Source: Rhodanobacteraceae bacterium ZG21-1 (GTDB lineage Bacteria > Pseudomonadota > Gammaproteobacteria > Xanthomonadales > Rhodanobacteraceae). From it: a stretch of DNA of 64,000 nucleotides. Position 1 is the stretch's first letter. The number at the start of each line of letters is the position of its first letter. The position numbers and the translations under genes are program-made. Of the stretch, positions 41,889-49,613 are shown in pieces. The stretch lies in contig JAJEJU010000024.1 of assembly GCA_021390615.1 (NCBI GenBank), positions 558,001-622,000 on the forward strand. Direction: 5' to 3'. The notes below the pieces were generated by a model, which was not told the DNA's origin, made no database searches, and saw only the letters and a list, made by a program, of their open reading frames with translations.

Positions 41889-43135
41889 GCCGAGGCGTCC
41901 TCGGCGCAGCGGCGGAACAGCAGGGCGGCGCAGCTGCCGCCGAAGCCGAAGCTGTTGGACAGCACGCTGTCGATGCGCTGCGCGCGGTTCTCGCGCAGCA
42001 GCGGCGCATCTTCGAAGTCGGGGTCCAGCGCGGCGATGCCGCCGCCGGCGGCGAGGAAATCGTGCTGCATCATCAGCAGCGCGGCCACCGCGTCCAGCGC
42101 GCCGGCGGCGCCGGGCGCATGGCCGCTCAGCCGCTTGATCGAGGACAGCGGCGGCACCGGCGCGCCGCGCTCGGCGAACACTGCGCGGATCGCCTGCCAT
42201 TCGGCCAGGTCGCCCTGCGGGGTGGAGCAGGCGTGCGCGTTGACGTAGTCGGGCAGGCTGCCGGCGCGCGCCAGCGCCTGCCGCATCGCGCGGGCGATGC
42301 CTTCGGCGCCGGGGCCGACCATGCTGGCGGCGTCGGTGCAGGCGCCGTAGCCGGCCAGCTCGGCCAGCACGGCGGCGCCACGCGTGCGGGCGTGCTCCAG
42401 CGATTCCAGCACCAGCACGGCGGCGCCGCCGGCCAGGGCGAAGCCGTCGCGGTCGCGGTCGTAGGGGCGCGAGGCGAGGCCGGGATCGTGCTGCGGCGAC
42501 AGCGCGCCCATCGCGTCGAACCACATCGCGGTGCTGTCGTGCAGCTCCTCGGCGCCGCCGGTGATCACCACGCTCTGGCGGCCGAGCTGGATCAGCTCCA
42601 TCGCCTGGCCGATCGCGTGTGCCGCGCTGGTGCAGGCCGAGCTGACCGTGTAGCTGACCCCGCCGATGCCGAAGGCATGCGCGGTGCTGGCGCTGAGCGC
42701 GCTGCTCATGCCGCGCGGCACGATGAAGGGCGACAGCTTGGCGACGCCCTTGGCGCGATGGCTGGCCAGCGCTTCCTCGTGCTCGCTCAGCGCGGCGCCG
42801 CCGCCCAGGACCAGGCCGCAGTCCTCGTCGCCGAGGCGTTCCGGCGCTAGCGCCGATTGCGCCATCGCTTCCTGGATCGCGTACCAGGCGTACAGGCCCG
42901 GCGCCGACAGGAAACGGCGCAGCTTGCGCGGCGGCTCCGTCAGGCCCTCCAGCGAGACCGGCCCGCCGATGCGGCTGCGCAGGCCCAGCGCGGCGAAGCC
43001 CGGCATCGCGCGCAGGCCGCTGCGCCCGTGGCGCAGCGCGTCGAGCAGGGCGGCATTGCCCTGGCCCAGGCAGCTCAGCGAGCCCAGGCCGGTGACCACC
43101 ACTCGCGGCAGGCCGTTGGCGTTGAGCAGGTTCAT
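41885..43135 (-). CDS. Beta-ketoacyl-ACP synthase (second ketosynthase)
   Basis: 416 residues. C168 (VSSACTSAAHAI) and H339 (RLSGHAPGAAGALD) are in place, but the first active-site His region reads NAHACSTPQGD (H301) instead of the usual HGT-x-T, a notable deviation. The C-terminal SNSFGFGGSCA loop is normal. The stop overlaps the chain-length-factor start by 4 bp, suggesting these two may pair, though the ApeO-like enzyme at 36 kb is the partner by analogy. It directly follows another ketosynthase (1-bp overlap), a probable duplication. Confidence 0.9.
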   Translation of the reverse strand: MNLLNANGLPRVVVTGLGSLSCLGQGNAALLDALRHGRSGLRAMPGFAALGLRSRIGGPVSLEGLTEPPRKLRRFLSAPGLYAWYAIQEAMAQSALAPERLGDEDCGLVLGGGAALSEHEEALASHRAKGVAKLSPFIVPRGMSSALSASTAHAFGIGGVSYTVSSACTSAAHAIGQAMELIQLGRQSVVITGGAEELHDSTAMWFDAMGALSPQHDPGLASRPYDRDRDGFALAGGAAVLVLESLEHARTRGAAVLAELAGYGACTDAASMVGPGAEGIARAMRQALARAGSLPDYVNAHACSTPQGDLAEWQAIRAVFAERGAPVPPLSSIKRLSGHAPGAAGALDAVAALLMMQHDFLAAGGGIAALDPDFEDAPLLRENRAQRIDSVLSNSFGFGGSCAALLFRRCAEDASA

Positions 43136-44376
43136 CAGTCGACGGCCCGAAAGATCAGCGAGGTGTTGATGCCGCCGAAGGCGAAGTTGTTGCTCATCAC
43201 GTACTCGGTGCTGAACCGGCGTTCGCTGCCGACGATGTAGTCCAGCTCGCCGCAGTCCGGATCGATCTCGTCGAGGTTGATGGTGGGCGCGAACCAGCCC
43301 TCGCGCATCATGCGCACCGCCCACCACGCCTCCAGCGCGCCGCAGGCGCCGAGGGTATGGCCGACGTAGCTCTTCATCGAGCTGATCGGCACGTGCGCGC
43401 CGAGCACGCTGGCGGTGGCCTGGCTCTCGGCCACGTCGCCGCGGTCGGTGGCGGTGCCGTGCGCGCTGACGTAGCCGATCGCTTCCGCCGGCAGGCTGGC
43501 GTCCTGCAGCGCCAGGCGCATCGCCACGGCCATGGTGTCGCGGGTCGGCTGGGTGATGTGGTTGCCGTCGGAGTTGCAGCCGAAGCCGATCACTTCGGCG
43601 TGGATGGTCGCGCCGCGCGCCTTGGCGTGCTCGTACTCCTCCAGCACCAGGCTGGTCGCGCCTTCGCCCACCACCAGGCCGTCGCGGCGACGGTCGAACG
43701 GGCGCGGGGTGAGCTGCGGCTCGTCGTTGCGCGTGCTGGTGGCGAACAAGGTGTCGAACACCGCCGCGCCGGGGCCGGACAATTCCTCCGCGCCGCCGCA
43801 CAGCATCAGCGTCTGCTTGCCCTGCTGGATCGCCTCGTAGGCGTAGCCGATCGCCTGGCTGCCCGAGGTGCAGGCGCTCGAGGTCGGAATGATGCGGCCC
43901 TTCAGCCCGAAGAACACGCCGACGTTCACCGCCGTGGTGTGCGCCATCATCTGGATGTAGCTGGTGGCGGTGACGCCCTGCATCGAACCGGTGTCCAGCA
44001 TGCGGCCCATCACCCGCACCGGCTCCACGCTGCCGCCGGACGAGCCGTAGGCCACGCCCATGCGGCCGTCGCGGATCGCGGCGGCGTCCTGCGACGTGCC
44101 GTCGTACAGCCCGGCATCCTGCAGCGCACGCTCGCTGGCGGCCACCGCCAGCTGCGCCACCCGACCCATCGAGCGCAGCTGCTGGCGCGGCCAGCGCGGC
44201 ACCTCGAAATCGTCCACCGGGCAGCCGAGCCGGCCGTTGAGCGCCTCGAAATAATCCCATTCCGGCATCCGCCGCACCGCGTTGCGCCCTTCGCGCAGGC
44301 GCGCCGCGATGCTGGCCCAGTCGTGGCCCAGCGGGGTGATGCCGCCCATGCCGGTGATGACGACGCGCTTCCTCAC
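43135..44376 (-). CDS. FabF-like beta-ketoacyl-ACP synthase (ApeR-like)
   Basis: 413 residues with all catalytic residues: C169 (TSSACTSGSQ), H306 (SAHGTATDRGD), H340 (SYVGHTLGACGALE) and the SNNFAFGGINTS loop. Start RKRVVITGMGGITPLG is textbook FabF. It may prime or begin elongation of the polyene (ApeR-type). It is the first gene downstream of the 1.35-kb repeat block, 1 bp overlap with the next ketosynthase. Confidence 0.94.
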   Translation of the reverse strand: MRKRVVITGMGGITPLGHDWASIAARLREGRNAVRRMPEWDYFEALNGRLGCPVDDFEVPRWPRQQLRSMGRVAQLAVAASERALQDAGLYDGTSQDAAAIRDGRMGVAYGSSGGSVEPVRVMGRMLDTGSMQGVTATSYIQMMAHTTAVNVGVFFGLKGRIIPTSSACTSGSQAIGYAYEAIQQGKQTLMLCGGAEELSGPGAAVFDTLFATSTRNDEPQLTPRPFDRRRDGLVVGEGATSLVLEEYEHAKARGATIHAEVIGFGCNSDGNHITQPTRDTMAVAMRLALQDASLPAEAIGYVSAHGTATDRGDVAESQATASVLGAHVPISSMKSYVGHTLGACGALEAWWAVRMMREGWFAPTINLDEIDPDCGELDYIVGSERRFSTEYVMSNNFAFGGINTSLIFRAVD

Positions 44377-44535
44377 GAGAGTGCTCCTGGGGTGTTGCCA
44401 ATTTTGGATTGCATGCCAATTTTTGGTTGGCGTGTTTGGGGTGTGGTGGCGTGTTCTCGGGCACCCGCCGACGCATGAGCTGCTTCCGCCGGGTTGTCCT
44501 GGCGAAGCGCTGTTGCTGTGGCTTCAGAGATTTTC

Positions 44536-44727
44536 GCGAGATTGTTTGGGCTTCGTTTGCCGACCGATGTCCAAGCTACTTTTGCAAGCTGGCCTGGGTT
44601 TCGTCCGCCTGCCGGCGGCCGAGCTACTGTCGTAAGCTGAGCTTGGTTTGGAGCCGCTGCCGCGGCCTGAGCGACATTCGCGAGCTGGCATTGGTTTCGA
44701 GCGCCTGCCGGCGCCCGAGTCACTTCT
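44536..44727. repeat. 48-bp tandem repeat, four diverged copies
   Basis: Units begin at 44536, 44584, 44632 and 44680, exactly 48 bp apart. The consensus starts GCGAGCTGGCxTTGGTTTCG and continues CGCCTGCCGGCGGCCGAG. The last copy runs straight into the 12-bp hairpin. Copies differ at many positions but never in length. Confidence 0.85.
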
Positions 44728-44750
44728 CTTTGCTTGCCCAAAGAGAAGTG
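44721..44750. repeat. Hairpin, left arm of the inverted element
   Basis: CACTTCTCTTTG (44721-44732) pairs perfectly with CAAAGAGAAGTG (44739-44750) around a 6-nt loop. An equivalent hairpin lies in the opposite arm at 45385-45416. Confidence 0.88.
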
Positions 44751-45384
44751 ACCAAGAGAAACGGCACCCCGAGGGCGCGCCTTCCGGGCATCCTGCCCTG
44801 CAGGTGTGCGAGCAGGCTCCGGGGTTTTTCGACAGCACATCCTGTGCTGGCGAAAAACTGGCCGACTTCCTGTCGGCCACCCTGTGGGCTGATCCTCCCC
44901 CTGCTCACCGCGCCTAAGGGGCCCCAGGCAGAGCAGCGCGCTCCCGGCGCGCACTGGGGGCGCCGCTGCGCGGCGATGAAGCAGGGTGCGGCAAGTCTTG
45001 CTCGTGGTTTCGTGCACCGAGCTCAACTTCAATCCTAGATTTAGTTCAGGCATCAGCGCCGAAGTGCAGGTCGAGATCAAAGCCAAAATCTCAGCCTGGG
45101 TCCGGATGCGGGTCTGGGCTTGGGCCGGAGTCGGAGCTGAAGTCGGAATTTGCCTCGAGCTTTGCTTTTGCTCTTCCAAAAAGTGCGCGCGGGAAGCGCG
45201 CTGCTCTGTGGGGTCCCCTTGGCGGTGGCGGGGCTCGGCCGAGCAGGCCCCGTCAGGGGGACTCGGCAGGACGCCGAGTCCTTTTCGCCGGGGCAGGAGC
45301 CCCGTCGAAAAGCCCGGGCGAGCCTCGCGGACCCGCAGGGCAGGATGCCCGGAGGGCACCGCCTCGGGGTGCCGTTTCTCTTGG

Positions 45385-45416
45385 CTACTTCTCTTTGGGC
45401 AAGCAAAGAGAAGTAG
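45385..45416. repeat. Hairpin, right arm of the inverted element
   Basis: CTACTTCTCTTTG (45385-45397) pairs perfectly with CAAAGAGAAGTAG (45404-45416) around GGCAAG. It is the inverted counterpart of the hairpin at 44721-44750, with a compensatory change in the outer stem (CA..TG versus TA..TA), which argues that the fold is kept. Confidence 0.88.
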
Positions 45417-45450
45417 CTCGGGCGCCGGCAGGCGCTCGAAACCCAGGCCA

Positions 45451-45700
45451 GCTCGCGAAAGTCGTTCGGGCTGCATTGGCAACGCGAGAATCCGATCCCG
45501 CCGCCGACAGGCGGACGAAAACCCAGCCAAAGGCCGGCCAGCTTGCGAAAGTGACTCGGCCGCCGGCAGGCACTCGAAACCCAGGCAAGCTCGCGAAGGT
45601 CGCTCCGCTTGCGTTGGCAATGCGAGAATCCGACCCGGCCGCCGGCAGGCGGACGAAAACCCAGCCAAAGGCTGGCCATCCCGCGAAGCCCCAACCGAAG
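45451..45700. repeat. Alternating 90/48-bp repeat array
   Basis: The motif GCTCGCGAAAG or a close variant starts at 45451, 45541, 45589 and 45679, that is spacing 90, 48, 90. The 90-bp units contain GGCGGACGAAAACCCAGCCAAAGGC, quoted here as GGCGGACGAAAACCCAGCC plus AAAGGC, and TTGGCAACGCGAGAATCCGA-like sequence. The 48-bp unit is the inverted form of the array at 44536-44727. Confidence 0.78.
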
Positions 45701-45730
45701 GTTGCCAACCCGGCGAAAGCATGCGCGCCC

Positions 45731-48106
45731 TCATCGCCCCGCCTCCCGCCCCGCAAGACTCGCCGGCACCAGCACCACCGTAAACGCGATCCCCAGTAGT
45801 AGCGTCAGCCCGAAGTCCCTCAGCGCCGGCATCGAACTCAGCGCCAGCAGGCCGAACGATAGCAGCGCGGTGAGCGCCGAGAGCAGCACGCTGGCGTACA
45901 TCGCGCCGGGGCGGTCGCCGGTGTGCGGTTCGCCTTCGCGCAGGAACACCGCGTAGTTGGCGCCCACGCCCAGCACCAGCATCAGCGCCATCCAGTGGAA
46001 CAGAGTCAGCGGCTGCTGCAGGTAGCCGAGCGCGGCGAGGGTGAGGCCGAGGCCGAGCACCGGCGGGGCCAGCACGCGCGGCGCCTGGCGCCAACTGTAG
46101 CGCCAGCCGAACACCGGCACGATCAGCAGCAAGGCGGCCAGCAGCCACACGCTGGCGTAGCCGCGGTAGCGGCCGAACAGGGCGGAGACGCTGGCGGCCT
46201 TGTCGACCAGGCTCACGCCAGGCAATCCCTCAGCGGCCTGCTGCAGCAAGGCGAGATCGGCCGCGCCCTGTGGCAGCACGATGCTGCCGTGGCCGTGCGT
46301 CGCATCGTCCAGCCACAGATAACGGAATGGCGTCGACAGCGGCGTGCGCAGCCAGTCGTCGAGCTGTAGCGGGGTGCCGGGCCAGGCGTCGAGGTAGCGG
46401 GATACGGCCGACGCGCGGAAGCCGGCCGTGCTGAGCCACTGCTGCATGCGTGCGCGGTCGTCGAGCCAGCGCGCGAGCAGGGCGTGGTTCTGCTGCTGGC
46501 GCTGCTGCGAGGGCACCATCCCGGCCAGGCCCAGCCAGCCCTGCAGTTTGTTCTGCTCGACCAGGGCCTGCAGGTGTGCTTCCAGGGCTTCCTCGCGCTG
46601 CAGAACCTGTTCGGCGTCATCGCCGGTGACCAGGAAGAACTGGTTGCCGTCACCCAGGCCGGTGACCTGGCGGATGGTGGCTTCCTGCGCTACCAGCTCC
46701 GGCGGCTGCACGATCAGCTGATGCACGTCGTCGTCGTGGCGTAGCTGCAGCCAGCCCGGCAGCGCCAGCAGGAGCAGCAGCGCGGCCAGCACGACGCCAC
46801 GGCGTCCGGCGCCGCCGCGGGCGAGCACCTGTTGCATCGCTCGCGCCAGGCGCACCGGGATCGCCGACAGCGGTTTCGCCGGCCGCTGCAACAGGGCGGG
46901 CAGCAGCCAGAACACGCTGAGGCAGGCGGCCAGCATGCCGCTCATGGCGAACACGGCCATCTGCCGCAGCGCCGGGAACGGCACCAGGCCGAGCAGGGCG
47001 TAGCCCAGCAGCGAGGTGCCCAGGGCGAGCAGCAGGGCGGGGCGCACCTGGCGCAGACCCGTCGCGGCCTGCCAGCGCGGTCCGGCGTTGGCGCGCGCGC
47101 TGAGATACTGGATCGAGTAGTCGACCGCTTCGCCCAGCAGGGCCGCGCCGAACACGATGGTCAGCAGATAGATCTGGCCGAACACCAGCAGGCTGAGCGT
47201 GGTCGCCGCGATCACGCCCACTGCAGTGGAAAGGAAGGCCAGCAGCAAGGGGCCGGGCGAGCGGAACACGCCAAGCAGCAGCAGGGCGATGCCGATCGTG
47301 GATATCCAACCGACGATGTGCACGTCGTGCTCGGCGTTGTGGCGCGCCGCGGCGGCGTAGAACAGCGCGCCGGTGCGCCACACGCGGGTGCCGGGCTGGT
47401 CGTGCACGATGGCCTGTTCGGCCAGCGCCAGCGCGGCCAGCGCCTGCTGCTGCACCTGGTCGTCGAAAGACGAGCCGCGCAGGGTGGCCGTGACCAGCAC
47501 GTAGCTGTGGCCGTCGCGATGCGCGGTGAGCAGGTCGTCTTCCGGCAGCAGCGGCGAGCGGCTCCACGGCTGCTGGTCCAGCCAGTGCTGCAGCCAGCCG
47601 AAGGGGTCGTCCTGCAGCGGCACGCCGACGCCGGTGAGGAAGGGTTCGTTGAGGTGCTGCGCCAAGGCCTGGGCCGGGTCGTAGCTGCCGGCGGCCAGCG
47701 CGGCGCGGTCGCCGTCGCCGAGCAGGGTGAAGCGATGCGCCAGGTAGGGCGCGAACACCTGCTGCAGGTCGAACGGCGGCAGTTCGGCGGTGACGCTGTC
47801 GAAGATGTGGTTCTGCGCCAGCGCCTTGCCCAGCGCACGGGCGGCGTCCTTGGCGCGCGCGTCGTCGGCGTTGTCCACCAGCAGCACCACGCGGTCGCCG
47901 TTGGCGTGCGCCAGCCGCTGCACTGCGATCTCGGCCAGCGGATGCTGCTCGGTGGCGGGCAGCATCGCCAACATGTCGGTCTGGATCGGCAGCGGGCCGC
48001 GGCCGAACAGCAGCCAGGCGCCGAGCGCGGCCAGCGCCAGCGTGGCGAGTGCGAAGGCGACGGCGCGCCGCGCGAGCGCGGACCGGGGCGATGCGCTCGA
48101 ACTCAT
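45731..48106 (-). CDS. MMPL-family exporter of the polyene cluster
   Basis: 791-residue inner-membrane RND/MMPL transporter with two symmetrical halves: a leading helix (14-34), a periplasmic domain, five helices around 270-410 (WISTIGIALLLLGVF; GAALLGEAVDYSIQYLSARA), a second periplasmic domain and a final helix bundle (LMLVLGVGANYAVFLREGE; LLLGIAFTVVLVPAS). MMPL exporters are standard in aryl-polyene loci, where they move the finished molecule toward the outer membrane. The 5' end overlaps the lolA-like stop by 4 bp; its 3' end abuts the repeat block. Confidence 0.93.
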   Translation of the reverse strand: MSSSASPRSALARRAVAFALATLALAALGAWLLFGRGPLPIQTDMLAMLPATEQHPLAEIAVQRLAHANGDRVVLLVDNADDARAKDAARALGKALAQNHIFDSVTAELPPFDLQQVFAPYLAHRFTLLGDGDRAALAAGSYDPAQALAQHLNEPFLTGVGVPLQDDPFGWLQHWLDQQPWSRSPLLPEDDLLTAHRDGHSYVLVTATLRGSSFDDQVQQQALAALALAEQAIVHDQPGTRVWRTGALFYAAAARHNAEHDVHIVGWISTIGIALLLLGVFRSPGPLLLAFLSTAVGVIAATTLSLLVFGQIYLLTIVFGAALLGEAVDYSIQYLSARANAGPRWQAATGLRQVRPALLLALGTSLLGYALLGLVPFPALRQMAVFAMSGMLAACLSVFWLLPALLQRPAKPLSAIPVRLARAMQQVLARGGAGRRGVVLAALLLLLALPGWLQLRHDDDVHQLIVQPPELVAQEATIRQVTGLGDGNQFFLVTGDDAEQVLQREEALEAHLQALVEQNKLQGWLGLAGMVPSQQRQQQNHALLARWLDDRARMQQWLSTAGFRASAVSRYLDAWPGTPLQLDDWLRTPLSTPFRYLWLDDATHGHGSIVLPQGAADLALLQQAAEGLPGVSLVDKAASVSALFGRYRGYASVWLLAALLLIVPVFGWRYSWRQAPRVLAPPVLGLGLTLAALGYLQQPLTLFHWMALMLVLGVGANYAVFLREGEPHTGDRPGAMYASVLLSALTALLSFGLLALSSMPALRDFGLTLLLGIAFTVVLVPASLAGREAGR

Positions 48107-48771
48107 GGCAGGCCGAGCGCGTGCTTTTCGAGGGCGCTGAGCTCGCCGGCGTCGCGGGTCTGGCTGAAGCGGATGTCGGTGCTGCTGCCGTCCTGCAGGT
48201 CGATGCGGATGCTCTGCAGGTAGTCGTTGCCGCCGAGTTCAATATGGCCGAGCACGCGCGCCATGCGTTCCTGCTTCGGGGTGAAGCGCAGAGTCCACTG
48301 GGCCGGCGCGCCACTGGCTTCGACGTTGAACTGGCGCAGCACCTCGTCCGGCTTGCCGGCCAGCATGGCCTGCAGCATCTGCGAGATCTGGCTGACCCCG
48401 CGCTCGTTGCGCATCGGCTGCAGCTGACCTTGCGCGTCGAGGCGGGCGGCGCGATCGCCGTTCAGCGCCAGGGTTTCCTGGTAGGGCGTGCGGGTCTGCC
48501 ACAGCATGCCGTGGCCGAGTACGAACAGCAGCTGCCCCTGGCTCACCTGCGGCTGGGCCAATGCGGGATTCGAACGGGTCTGCACGAACTCGGCGCGCAC
48601 CGCGCTGTGCTTGCCCAGCCCGTCCAGCACGTTCTGCAGCAGGCCATCGGCCTGGCCGTCGGCATGGGCGAGGGCGGCCACGGCGCACAGCAGCAGGATC
48701 AGCGCAAGGCGGAAAACGCCGCGTCCTGCCCGGCCTGCGCGATGGTTGGAGTAGCTCAGTGAGTGGCGCAT
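48103..48771 (-). CDS. LolA-like outer-membrane lipoprotein carrier
   Basis: 222-residue exported protein with signal peptide (about 20-38, LALILLLCAVAALAHA). The LolA-like fold is suggested by VRAEFVQTRSNPALAQPQVSQG and GQLLFVLGHGMLWQTRTPY. LolA-like genes next to MMPL exporters are a hallmark of aryl-polyene clusters, probably shuttling the lipidated product across the periplasm. It overlaps the exporter gene by 4 bp. The 66-bp gap upstream holds a copy of the cluster's GGGCATCCTGCCCTGC repeat core. Confidence 0.87.
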   Translation of the reverse strand: MRHSLSYSNHRAGRAGRGVFRLALILLLCAVAALAHADGQADGLLQNVLDGLGKHSAVRAEFVQTRSNPALAQPQVSQGQLLFVLGHGMLWQTRTPYQETLALNGDRAARLDAQGQLQPMRNERGVSQISQMLQAMLAGKPDEVLRQFNVEASGAPAQWTLRFTPKQERMARVLGHIELGGNDYLQSIRIDLQDGSSTDIRFSQTRDAGELSALEKHALGLP

Positions 48772-48836
48772 GCGGGTTTCTCCTGACTGCGGGCATCCTG
48801 CCCTGCGCCCTGCGCCCTGCGGGCCGGCGGCGCTGT

Positions 48837-49613
48837 TCACCGCGGCTCCTGCCGCGGGGTGCGGAATCGGCGCCACACCAGGCCGGGCGCGCGCGGCAGC
48901 ATGCCGAACAGCAGGCGCGTGTGCATCGCCGAGATGCGCAGGTTGTCGCGCAGCATGCGGAAGTGAGACAAGCCGTTTTCCGGATAGATCACCCGGGTCG
49001 GCAGATTGCGCACCGGCAGGCCGCGCCAGGCCAGCCGCACGGCGATTTCGGTATCGAAGTCCATGCGTGCCGGCAGCGGCGCGCGGGCGATCTCGGCGCA
49101 GGTGTCGGCCAGCGGGTACAGGCGGTAGCCGCACATCGAATCGCGGATCGCCAGCGACAGCGTTTCCATCCATACGCAGACATGGGTGACGTAGCGGCCG
49201 TACAGGCGCGCGCGCGGCACGCTGTCGTCGTAGATCGGCTGGCCGCAGACCAGGGCGCGGGGTTCGGCGCGCGCCGTGGCGAGAAAACGCGGCACGTCGG
49301 CAGTGTCGTGCTGGCCGTCGGCGTCGATCTGCAGGGCGTGGCTGTAGCCGGCCTCGCGTGCGGCGAGCAGGCCGGCGCTGAGCGCGCGGCCTTTACCCTG
49401 GTTGTGCGGCAGGCGCAGCAACTGCATGCCGTCGATCTCGCGCGCCAGCGCATCGAGCACGGCGCGGGTGGCCTCGTCGCTGCCGTCGTCCACCACCAGC
49501 ACGGGCAGCCCGTGCGTGCGCAGCGCCTGCACGGTGCGCGCAATGGTGTCCTTGTGGTTGTAGATCGGGATCAGCGCGCAGGGGGCGAACCGTCCGTCGG
49601 CGATGGCGGACAT
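48837..49613 (-). CDS. Family 2 glycosyltransferase
   Basis: 258-residue GT-A enzyme. CALIPIYNHKDTI, the VLVVDDGSDE nucleotide-sugar site and ALQIDADGQHD (DxD) are clear. In aryl-polyene loci GT2 proteins glycosylate or otherwise modify the aryl-polyene lipid. The gene lies 14 bp downstream of the first ACP gene. Confidence 0.93.
   Translation of the reverse strand: MSAIADGRFAPCALIPIYNHKDTIARTVQALRTHGLPVLVVDDGSDEATRAVLDALAREIDGMQLLRLPHNQGKGRALSAGLLAAREAGYSHALQIDADGQHDTADVPRFLATARAEPRALVCGQPIYDDSVPRARLYGRYVTHVCVWMETLSLAIRDSMCGYRLYPLADTCAEIARAPLPARMDFDTEIAVRLAWRGLPVRNLPTRVIYPENGLSHFRMLRDNLRISAMHTRLLFGMLPRAPGLVWRRFRTPRQEPR

Follow-up and report, generated by a model that had tools for sequence, protein, structure and literature searches.

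The insert and its place in the pigment operon

The window analysed here is a 64,000-nucleotide stretch of the genome of Rhodanobacteraceae bacterium ZG21-1, and it carries a pigment operon on its minus strand. Within this operon, an MMPL-family exporter gene (45731–48106, minus strand; Pfam PF03176) lies upstream and a beta-ketoacyl synthase gene (43135–44376, minus strand; Pfam PF00109/PF02801) lies downstream of a block of 1354 bp (44377–45730), which runs from the exporter stop at 45731 to the ketosynthase start at 44376. The sequence-only reading had described this block as free of genes, and our analysis agrees: the ORFs listed across it read as mechanical. A coding function for the block was rejected on the same judgement, made by reading, which takes the ORFs as mechanical and the arms as hairpins.

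To place the block among its relatives, we scanned named records that include the exporter, which yielded 38 loci. The gap between exporter and ketosynthase was measurable in 35 of these, as no ketosynthase was found in L053, L054, and L076, which were left out of the junction count. In 27 of the 35 relatives the gap is at most 43 bp (two overlap by 7), with 28 bp as the most frequent length. Fulvimonas sp. R45 (706-bp gap) and Rhodanobacter sp. C06 (727-bp gap) both have a homologous element with the architecture of the window copy at this orthologous junction, and two further relatives with a 118-bp gap hold a remnant there that resembles fused outer hairpins. This comparison shows 44377–45730 to be an insertion that is absent from most relatives. 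In a tree of the exporter, one 12-row group (support 83/97) unites the window, the two other occupied loci, and both remnants, and also includes empty sites; a single old insertion with subsequent losses and several insertions would each fit this tree. Short other sequence occupies the junction in L050 and L055, while L063 and L070 have a different dispersed repeat there (GTCATTCCGGCG...CCGG.ATGACG), which indicates that the spot accepts unrelated repeats.

The two inverted arms that had been claimed for the block are present and are longer than claimed. An ungapped search pairs 44662–44828 with 45308–45474 (86% complementary) and 44929–44955 with 45182–45208 (93% complementary), and gapped self-BLAST aligns 44533–44955 with 45182–45597 (74%, E 2e-65). 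Each 301-nt arm out-folds 100 of 100 shuffles (z -5.1 and -4.4), and the compensatory change reported for the outer stem is there as well (GTCACTTC.../...GAAGTGAC versus GCTACTTC.../...GAAGTAGC).

The outermost parts of the element are a 16-bp inverted repeat at 44481–44496 that is 94% complementary to, and pairs with, 45706–45721. On the left, a repeat search found four outer repeats spaced by 48 bp, with the outer hairpins H0/H1 (44526–44724, plus strand). These are followed by hairpin H2 (44719–44752), which is common to the A- and B-type elements described below, and by hairpin H3 (GGGCAGGATGCCC; 44786–44798), whose GGA loop is on the minus strand. Next comes the left A-arm module, made up of P1, H5, and H4 (44798–44905, minus strand), which scores 96.1 bits with our covariance model R1 and 84.1 bits with the loop-masked model R2. 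Its hairpins H4 (44825–44857, loop CAGGATG) and H5 (44859–44879, loop CAGGAAG) carry their GGA loops on the minus strand, which is the strand of the operon. A variable centre (44956–45181) separates the arms. The right A-arm module (45231–45338; R1 93.6 bits, R2 81.8 bits) has its GGA loops on the plus strand, in H5 (45259–45281, loop CAGGACG) and H4 (45282–45311, loop CAGGAG), and is followed by a plus-strand copy of H3 (GGGCAGGATGCCC; 45338–45350), by H2 (45384–45417), and, at the outer end of the arm, by two 138-bp direct repeats (45411–45686, plus strand). Within a single transcript, the left and right arms can form a duplex (-681 kcal/mol for 1001 nt), which may conceal the GGA loops. A pattern search of the window found no sigma-70-like promoter site in the block, the variable centre included, and eight terminator-like sites compared with 2.2 +/- 1.8 in shuffles.

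The 16-bp core that the sequence-only reading had noticed a second time does recur, at 48791–48806, within the 65 bp that lead from the stop of a glycosyltransferase gene to a LolA-like start. The 13-mer GGGCAGGATGCCC occurs 10 times in the 5.5-Mb genome, eight of them inside element loci, and thus the lone copy at 48791 could be chance. On the minus strand, 48771–48857 holds two AGGA-loop hairpins before the LolA-like start: CGCGGC-AGGA-GCCGCG lies in the last glycosyltransferase codons, and GGGCAGGATGCCC lies in the 65-bp leader and is followed by a GGA-containing Shine-Dalgarno sequence. We rejected a conserved CsrA-like leader before the LolA-like gene, as none was seen in those leaders of relatives that could be placed by script, a comparison in which several starts were misplaced, that of L041 grossly.

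A dispersed family of mosaic elements

The block had been suspected to belong to a dispersed non-coding repeat family, and the many copies per genome, together with an insertion absent from most relatives, bear this out. It is neither single-copy nor without homologues: the own genome yielded 38 matches (self-matches included), and homologues occur in many genera. The core of hairpin H2 is found 13 times in the own genome, as six plus-then-minus pairs and one unpaired copy, and in 16 of 61 sampled genomes (own included) and 14 of 44 genera.

The outer hairpins H1/H2 are common to elements with two kinds of interior. The window and L029 are A-type, most copies on contig C18 are B-type, and A/B chimeras occur in other genomes. 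Other dispersed hairpin repeats sit within or beside the elements, and the whole therefore resembles a BIME mosaic. The B-type elements on contig C18 of genome G000 (L032–L037) have H1/H2 ends, units of about 100 bp (GAGCACGCCGG...ATCGCTCGGGAACTG), of which some elements have several, and an AT-rich centre that contains CCAAATTGCCAA. In L035, L036, L038, and L030, H2 is split by a similar hairpin-rich insert, which in most cases has GGGCAGGATGCCCGGAGTCAAG or its complement, as though H2 were a landing site for a smaller repeat. The copies in genome G072 are about 90% alike over 800–900 bp (some arms up to 98.6%), and their flanks differ where compared; this points to either recent spread or homogenisation.

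Such features would suit BIME- or MITE-like mobile DNA, in which the hairpins are single-stranded DNA sites for a trans-acting transposase or HUH enzyme that contacts the loops, and any RNA role is incidental. The family is dispersed and multi-copy, ten of the G072 matches listed for R1 share one score, the H1/H2 ends are shared by differing interiors with chimeras between them, and the outermost 16-bp repeat supplies the terminal inverted repeats of a MITE. However, a Y1 (RAYT-type) transposase (PF01797) was absent from the one genome searched, the element's own, which leaves mobilisation by a resident RAYT/REP system unsupported. No target-site duplication was seen by eye at the window ends or at the G072 ends shown. 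A transposase between widely spaced pairs was also rejected, as the intervening ORFs of two such pairs (L084 and L090) look by eye like ordinary genes. Plasmid or phage carriage was set aside with one weak plasmid match and zero phage matches. The earlier suggestion that the family is mobilised in trans may still hold, although it gained neither a target duplication nor a resident Y1 enzyme. Together with the loop evidence given below, we judge that mobile DNA with an incidental RNA role is an unlikely full account of the element.

Conservation of the twin-hairpin module

Each arm contains a module of about 107 nt with two neighbouring hairpins, H5 and H4 (A-arms are read here with H2 at the 3' end). 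When arms are aligned by H2, both hairpins keep GGA in their loops while the stems vary. H2 alone retrieved 27 arms, 14 of which were classed as A-type by eye; in these 14, GGA is present in every H5 loop and in 13 H4 loops. R1, a covariance model built from 14 arms, found the module in 114 of 147 genomes of the family and 23 of 26 genera, in a scan that scored the best 26 candidates per genome and in which many genomes, G072 among them, reach at least 26. There were up to 72 places in one genome (G063) and five matches in the own genome. R1 also matched 18 of 185 genomes of the class and, at the lower sensitivity of a scan that scored the best 13 candidates per genome, 4 of 299 genomes of the phylum, all inside the order (own genome included in both counts). 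Across 58 other loci, B-type elements included (529,464 bases in all), it had no match. The B-type elements thus have the same H1/H2 ends but lack the module, which argues against a purely mobile role for its hairpins.

The idea of an RNA structure, which the sequence-only reading had offered for the gap as a whole, finds support for the arms, in their covariation and conserved loops. In alignment A3 (87 R1 matches), which is fitted to R1 and whose counts thus lean toward the model, 99.0% of pair cells are paired and 21 of 23 pairs have double changes, which far exceed one-sided changes; the covariation score is 0.665, compared with 0.167 for shuffled and 0.064–0.097 for slid alignments. A1, a MAFFT alignment of 16 arms, is not fitted, and for this alignment RNAalifold predicts 34 pairs, 19 of which have a double change.

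GGA is present in 86 of the 87 H5 loops and 84 of the 87 H4 loops of A3, with a GGA-to-GGA distance of 26–29 nt in the 83 rows that have both. The C, A, G, G, A, and G positions of the H5 loop have entropies of at most 0.18 bits, compared with 1.64 bits for N and 1.47 bits for X. The full CANGGANG loop occurs in 68 H5 and 23 H4 hairpins of the 87 rows. Because R1 knows the loop letters, we retested loop conservation with R2, a model from 24 arms in which the loop letters A(N)GGA(N) are masked and only the P1 and H4 pairs are modelled, which makes it blind to H5 pairing as well. R2 matched 26 of 151 genomes of the order (own included). Alignment A7 (45 rows from 28 loci returned by R2, eight of them already fetched by R1, with two rows being weak antisense matches) has GGA in 37 H5 and 41 H4 loops and A(N)GGA in both loops of 32 rows. 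A8 was drawn from loci chosen by H2, DNA similarity, or the exporter, and not by GGA models; after 7 of its 27 rows were dropped as short, the 20 full-length matches, many of which are seeds, have GGA in 20 H5 and 19 H4 loops. Among background hairpins, 3 of 452 strand readings show an A(N)GGA loop. As judged from these alignments, loop conservation holds up once ascertainment is controlled for, at a lower level than the R1 matches imply. The commonest H5 exception is CACGATG instead of CANGGATG (L142, L231, and L239), possibly a loss of one putative binding site.

The fold appears to be selected on one strand. Across 216 rows of H5 and H4 (200 distinct), there are 38 G.T cells and 3 A.C cells; merging repeats within some genomes leaves 32 and 3 (p 4e-7). 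A DNA cruciform would treat both strands alike, so this bias indicates that the GGA strand is the folded, selected strand, as RNA or possibly as single-stranded DNA. G.A would read as C.T on the opposite strand, and C.T is found in one cell; this imbalance, noticed post hoc, has the same direction as the wobbles. The G.T (G.U) pairs make up about 1% of H5 and H4 cells and are outnumbered by G.A mismatches (38 versus 67), which are scattered and in many cases in distant copies; the stems thus depart from the textbook pattern, and some process at the DNA level may also help to maintain them. Rare G.U pairs favour the mobile-DNA account, and strand-specific folding also fits single-stranded DNA.

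The dominance of double changes would also suit neutral palindromic debris, kept paired through template-switch (quasi-palindrome) correction and gene conversion between arms, as would the near-identity that arms of one element can reach (98.8% over 80 bp in L036). Conserved loops already count against such debris, unless the copying mechanism itself constrains loops, and neither they nor the 32:3 wobble asymmetry would be expected of it. The order of the modules also counts against it, as most copies preserve this order, in other families of the class too: neighbouring modules within 1 kb stand as minus then plus in 56 of 68 cases, with six plus-plus, four plus-minus, and two minus-minus, in a count that includes at least one place twice (L059 and L117). 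Altogether, we consider neutral debris very unlikely. The opposite order, plus then minus, was seen in L156, L187, and L188 (G048) and in L220 (G327).

Nearly all modules are intergenic, with 102 of 105 module groups overlapping no gene called by our home-made caller. Both neighbours were called for 84 groups (including a few duplicates), and these are convergent in 27, tandem in 44, and divergent in 13. Solo modules in tandem-gene contexts are antisense in 16 cases and sense in 8, which speaks against a role purely as leaders. Divergent promoters located centrally between the arms were rejected, as the 47 of 56 minus-then-plus centres that are shorter than 330 bp showed no shared promoter by eye, and the pattern search of the window gave none. 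More convergent than divergent neighbours, along with the surplus of terminator-like sites in the block, would be in line with a terminator, insulator, or mRNA-stabilising structure, in which a long inverted repeat stops read-through or protects 3' ends independently of any protein. However, the T-run after H5 is lost in several of the distant copies shown, and CA(N)GGA loops in both hairpins are not needed for such a role, which we regard as improbable.

Candidate CsrA/RsmA sites and comparison with known systems

Across the family, the loops mostly keep CA(N)GGA(N)G, and H5 in most relatives has the form C-ANGGAX-G on its stem. RsmE/CsrA is described as preferring, with high affinity, an ANGGAX loop directly on a stem, with lower affinity when N is omitted (PMC4005645), and another account names 5'-CANGGANG-3' as a motif for Rsm binding (PMC6849547). 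The H5 and H4 loops match this published site position by position, which further weighs against a purely mobile element. As in CsrA/RsmA sites, both loops of both window arms have A(N)GGA in the apical loops of paired, stable hairpins; the window loops lack the N of ANGGAX, which would place them in the weaker class. The own genome has three CsrA matches, one of them canonical; the third, partial match (G000:C18:1872351-1872473) contains one in-frame TAG. The twin-hairpin module probably binds CsrA/RsmA.

Our preferred explanation, which we hold with modest confidence, is a dispersed element built as an inverted pair, whose transcripts would present RsmA/CsrA-binding hairpins for titration or local control. 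The block is one copy of this non-coding element, with arms that end outward in H1/H2 and an inner module whose H5 and H4 loops would serve as RsmA/CsrA recognition sequences. With the arms inverted, a transcript from either side ends with a GGA-bearing arm. Such a transcript could arise through read-through, here by the pigment operon on the minus strand, and the transcribed arm would bind RsmA/CsrA dimers. The bound arm may then titrate the protein, as CsrB and RsmZ do, and/or, from its position about 420 nt before the ketosynthase gene, serve as a leader that responds to RsmA. We put forward more tentatively, as a possibility we doubt somewhat, that a mobile or once-mobile repeat has spread mirrored RsmA/CsrA docking hairpins to tens of intergenic sites in some genomes, and that these repeats jointly fill the place of the RsmA antagonist missing from Rhodanobacteraceae and/or bring many operons, the pigment operon in this case, under RsmA.

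CsrA/RsmA is a global regulator, and its opposition in this order is poorly known. If the repeats do carry binding sites, RsmA would be titrated or redirected by a transposon-like family, which would parallel regulatory rewiring by mobile elements in eukaryotes, and the orphan RNA family TwoAYGGAY would gain a testable context. The sequence-only reading saw a real feature and guessed its class well; new here are the mirrored-pair packing inside a high-copy repeat, the test for strand bias, and the location in a pigment operon. Our search of open-licence PMC papers found no description of dispersed inverted pairs of such modules.

REP/BIME sequences with RAYT are intergenic hairpin repeats in inverted pairs with a mosaic structure (PMC2817692). 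The window element is likewise an intergenic, mosaic assembly of hairpin repeats in inverted pairs; it differs in being much longer and in having no Y1 transposase in its genome.

CsrB, RsmX, RsmY, and RsmZ are sRNAs from single genes. They and RsmU share GGA hairpin loops with the module; in contrast to CsrB-type sponges, the window element is a dispersed repeat in which no promoter was found. For sequenced Xanthomonas genomes, no CsrB or RsmX/Y/Z homologue is reported in the account that describes RsmU, an mRNA-derived RsmA binder reported there only in Xanthomonas (PMC7694677). According to the same account, RsmA binding in vitro persisted when all four GGA of RsmU were replaced by AAU (PMC7694677), which indicates that the presence of GGA loops is not in itself proof of binding. 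A weak match to Bacillaceae-1 RNA (RF01690) lies on the window plus strand at 44814–44876 (28.2 bits, below the cut-off of 35). Bacillaceae is the taxon listed for this RNA (PMC2864571), and its reverse complement has been proposed to bind CsrA (PMC4333381).

TwoAYGGAY (RF01731), which shares Rfam clan CL00106 with CsrB, is listed from human gut, gamma-Proteobacteria, and Clostridiales (PMC2864571) and is predicted to bind CsrA (PMC4333381). Like the module, it has two adjoining hairpins with GGA loops, and both window arms have two hairpins with GGA-containing terminal loops. The window loops (AGGAA, AGGAT, AGGAC, and AGGA) lack the first Y of AYGGAY, and some relatives have ATGGAT or ACGGAC. 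Matches reached the gathering cut-off (43 bits) in 2 of 44 scanned sources: L165 (61.0 bits) and L130 (43.4 bits) among 20 related loci, none among 20 other related loci (best 33.4 bits), and none among the window, L029, L059, and L073. By analogy, we regard the module as akin to TwoAYGGAY and likely to work like one, and the window copy is not filed as RF01731 because its score is below the cut-off. Compared with TwoAYGGAY, the module here is set apart by its packing as an inverted pair; the dispersed element that holds it has H1/H2 ends and reaches tens of copies in some genomes.
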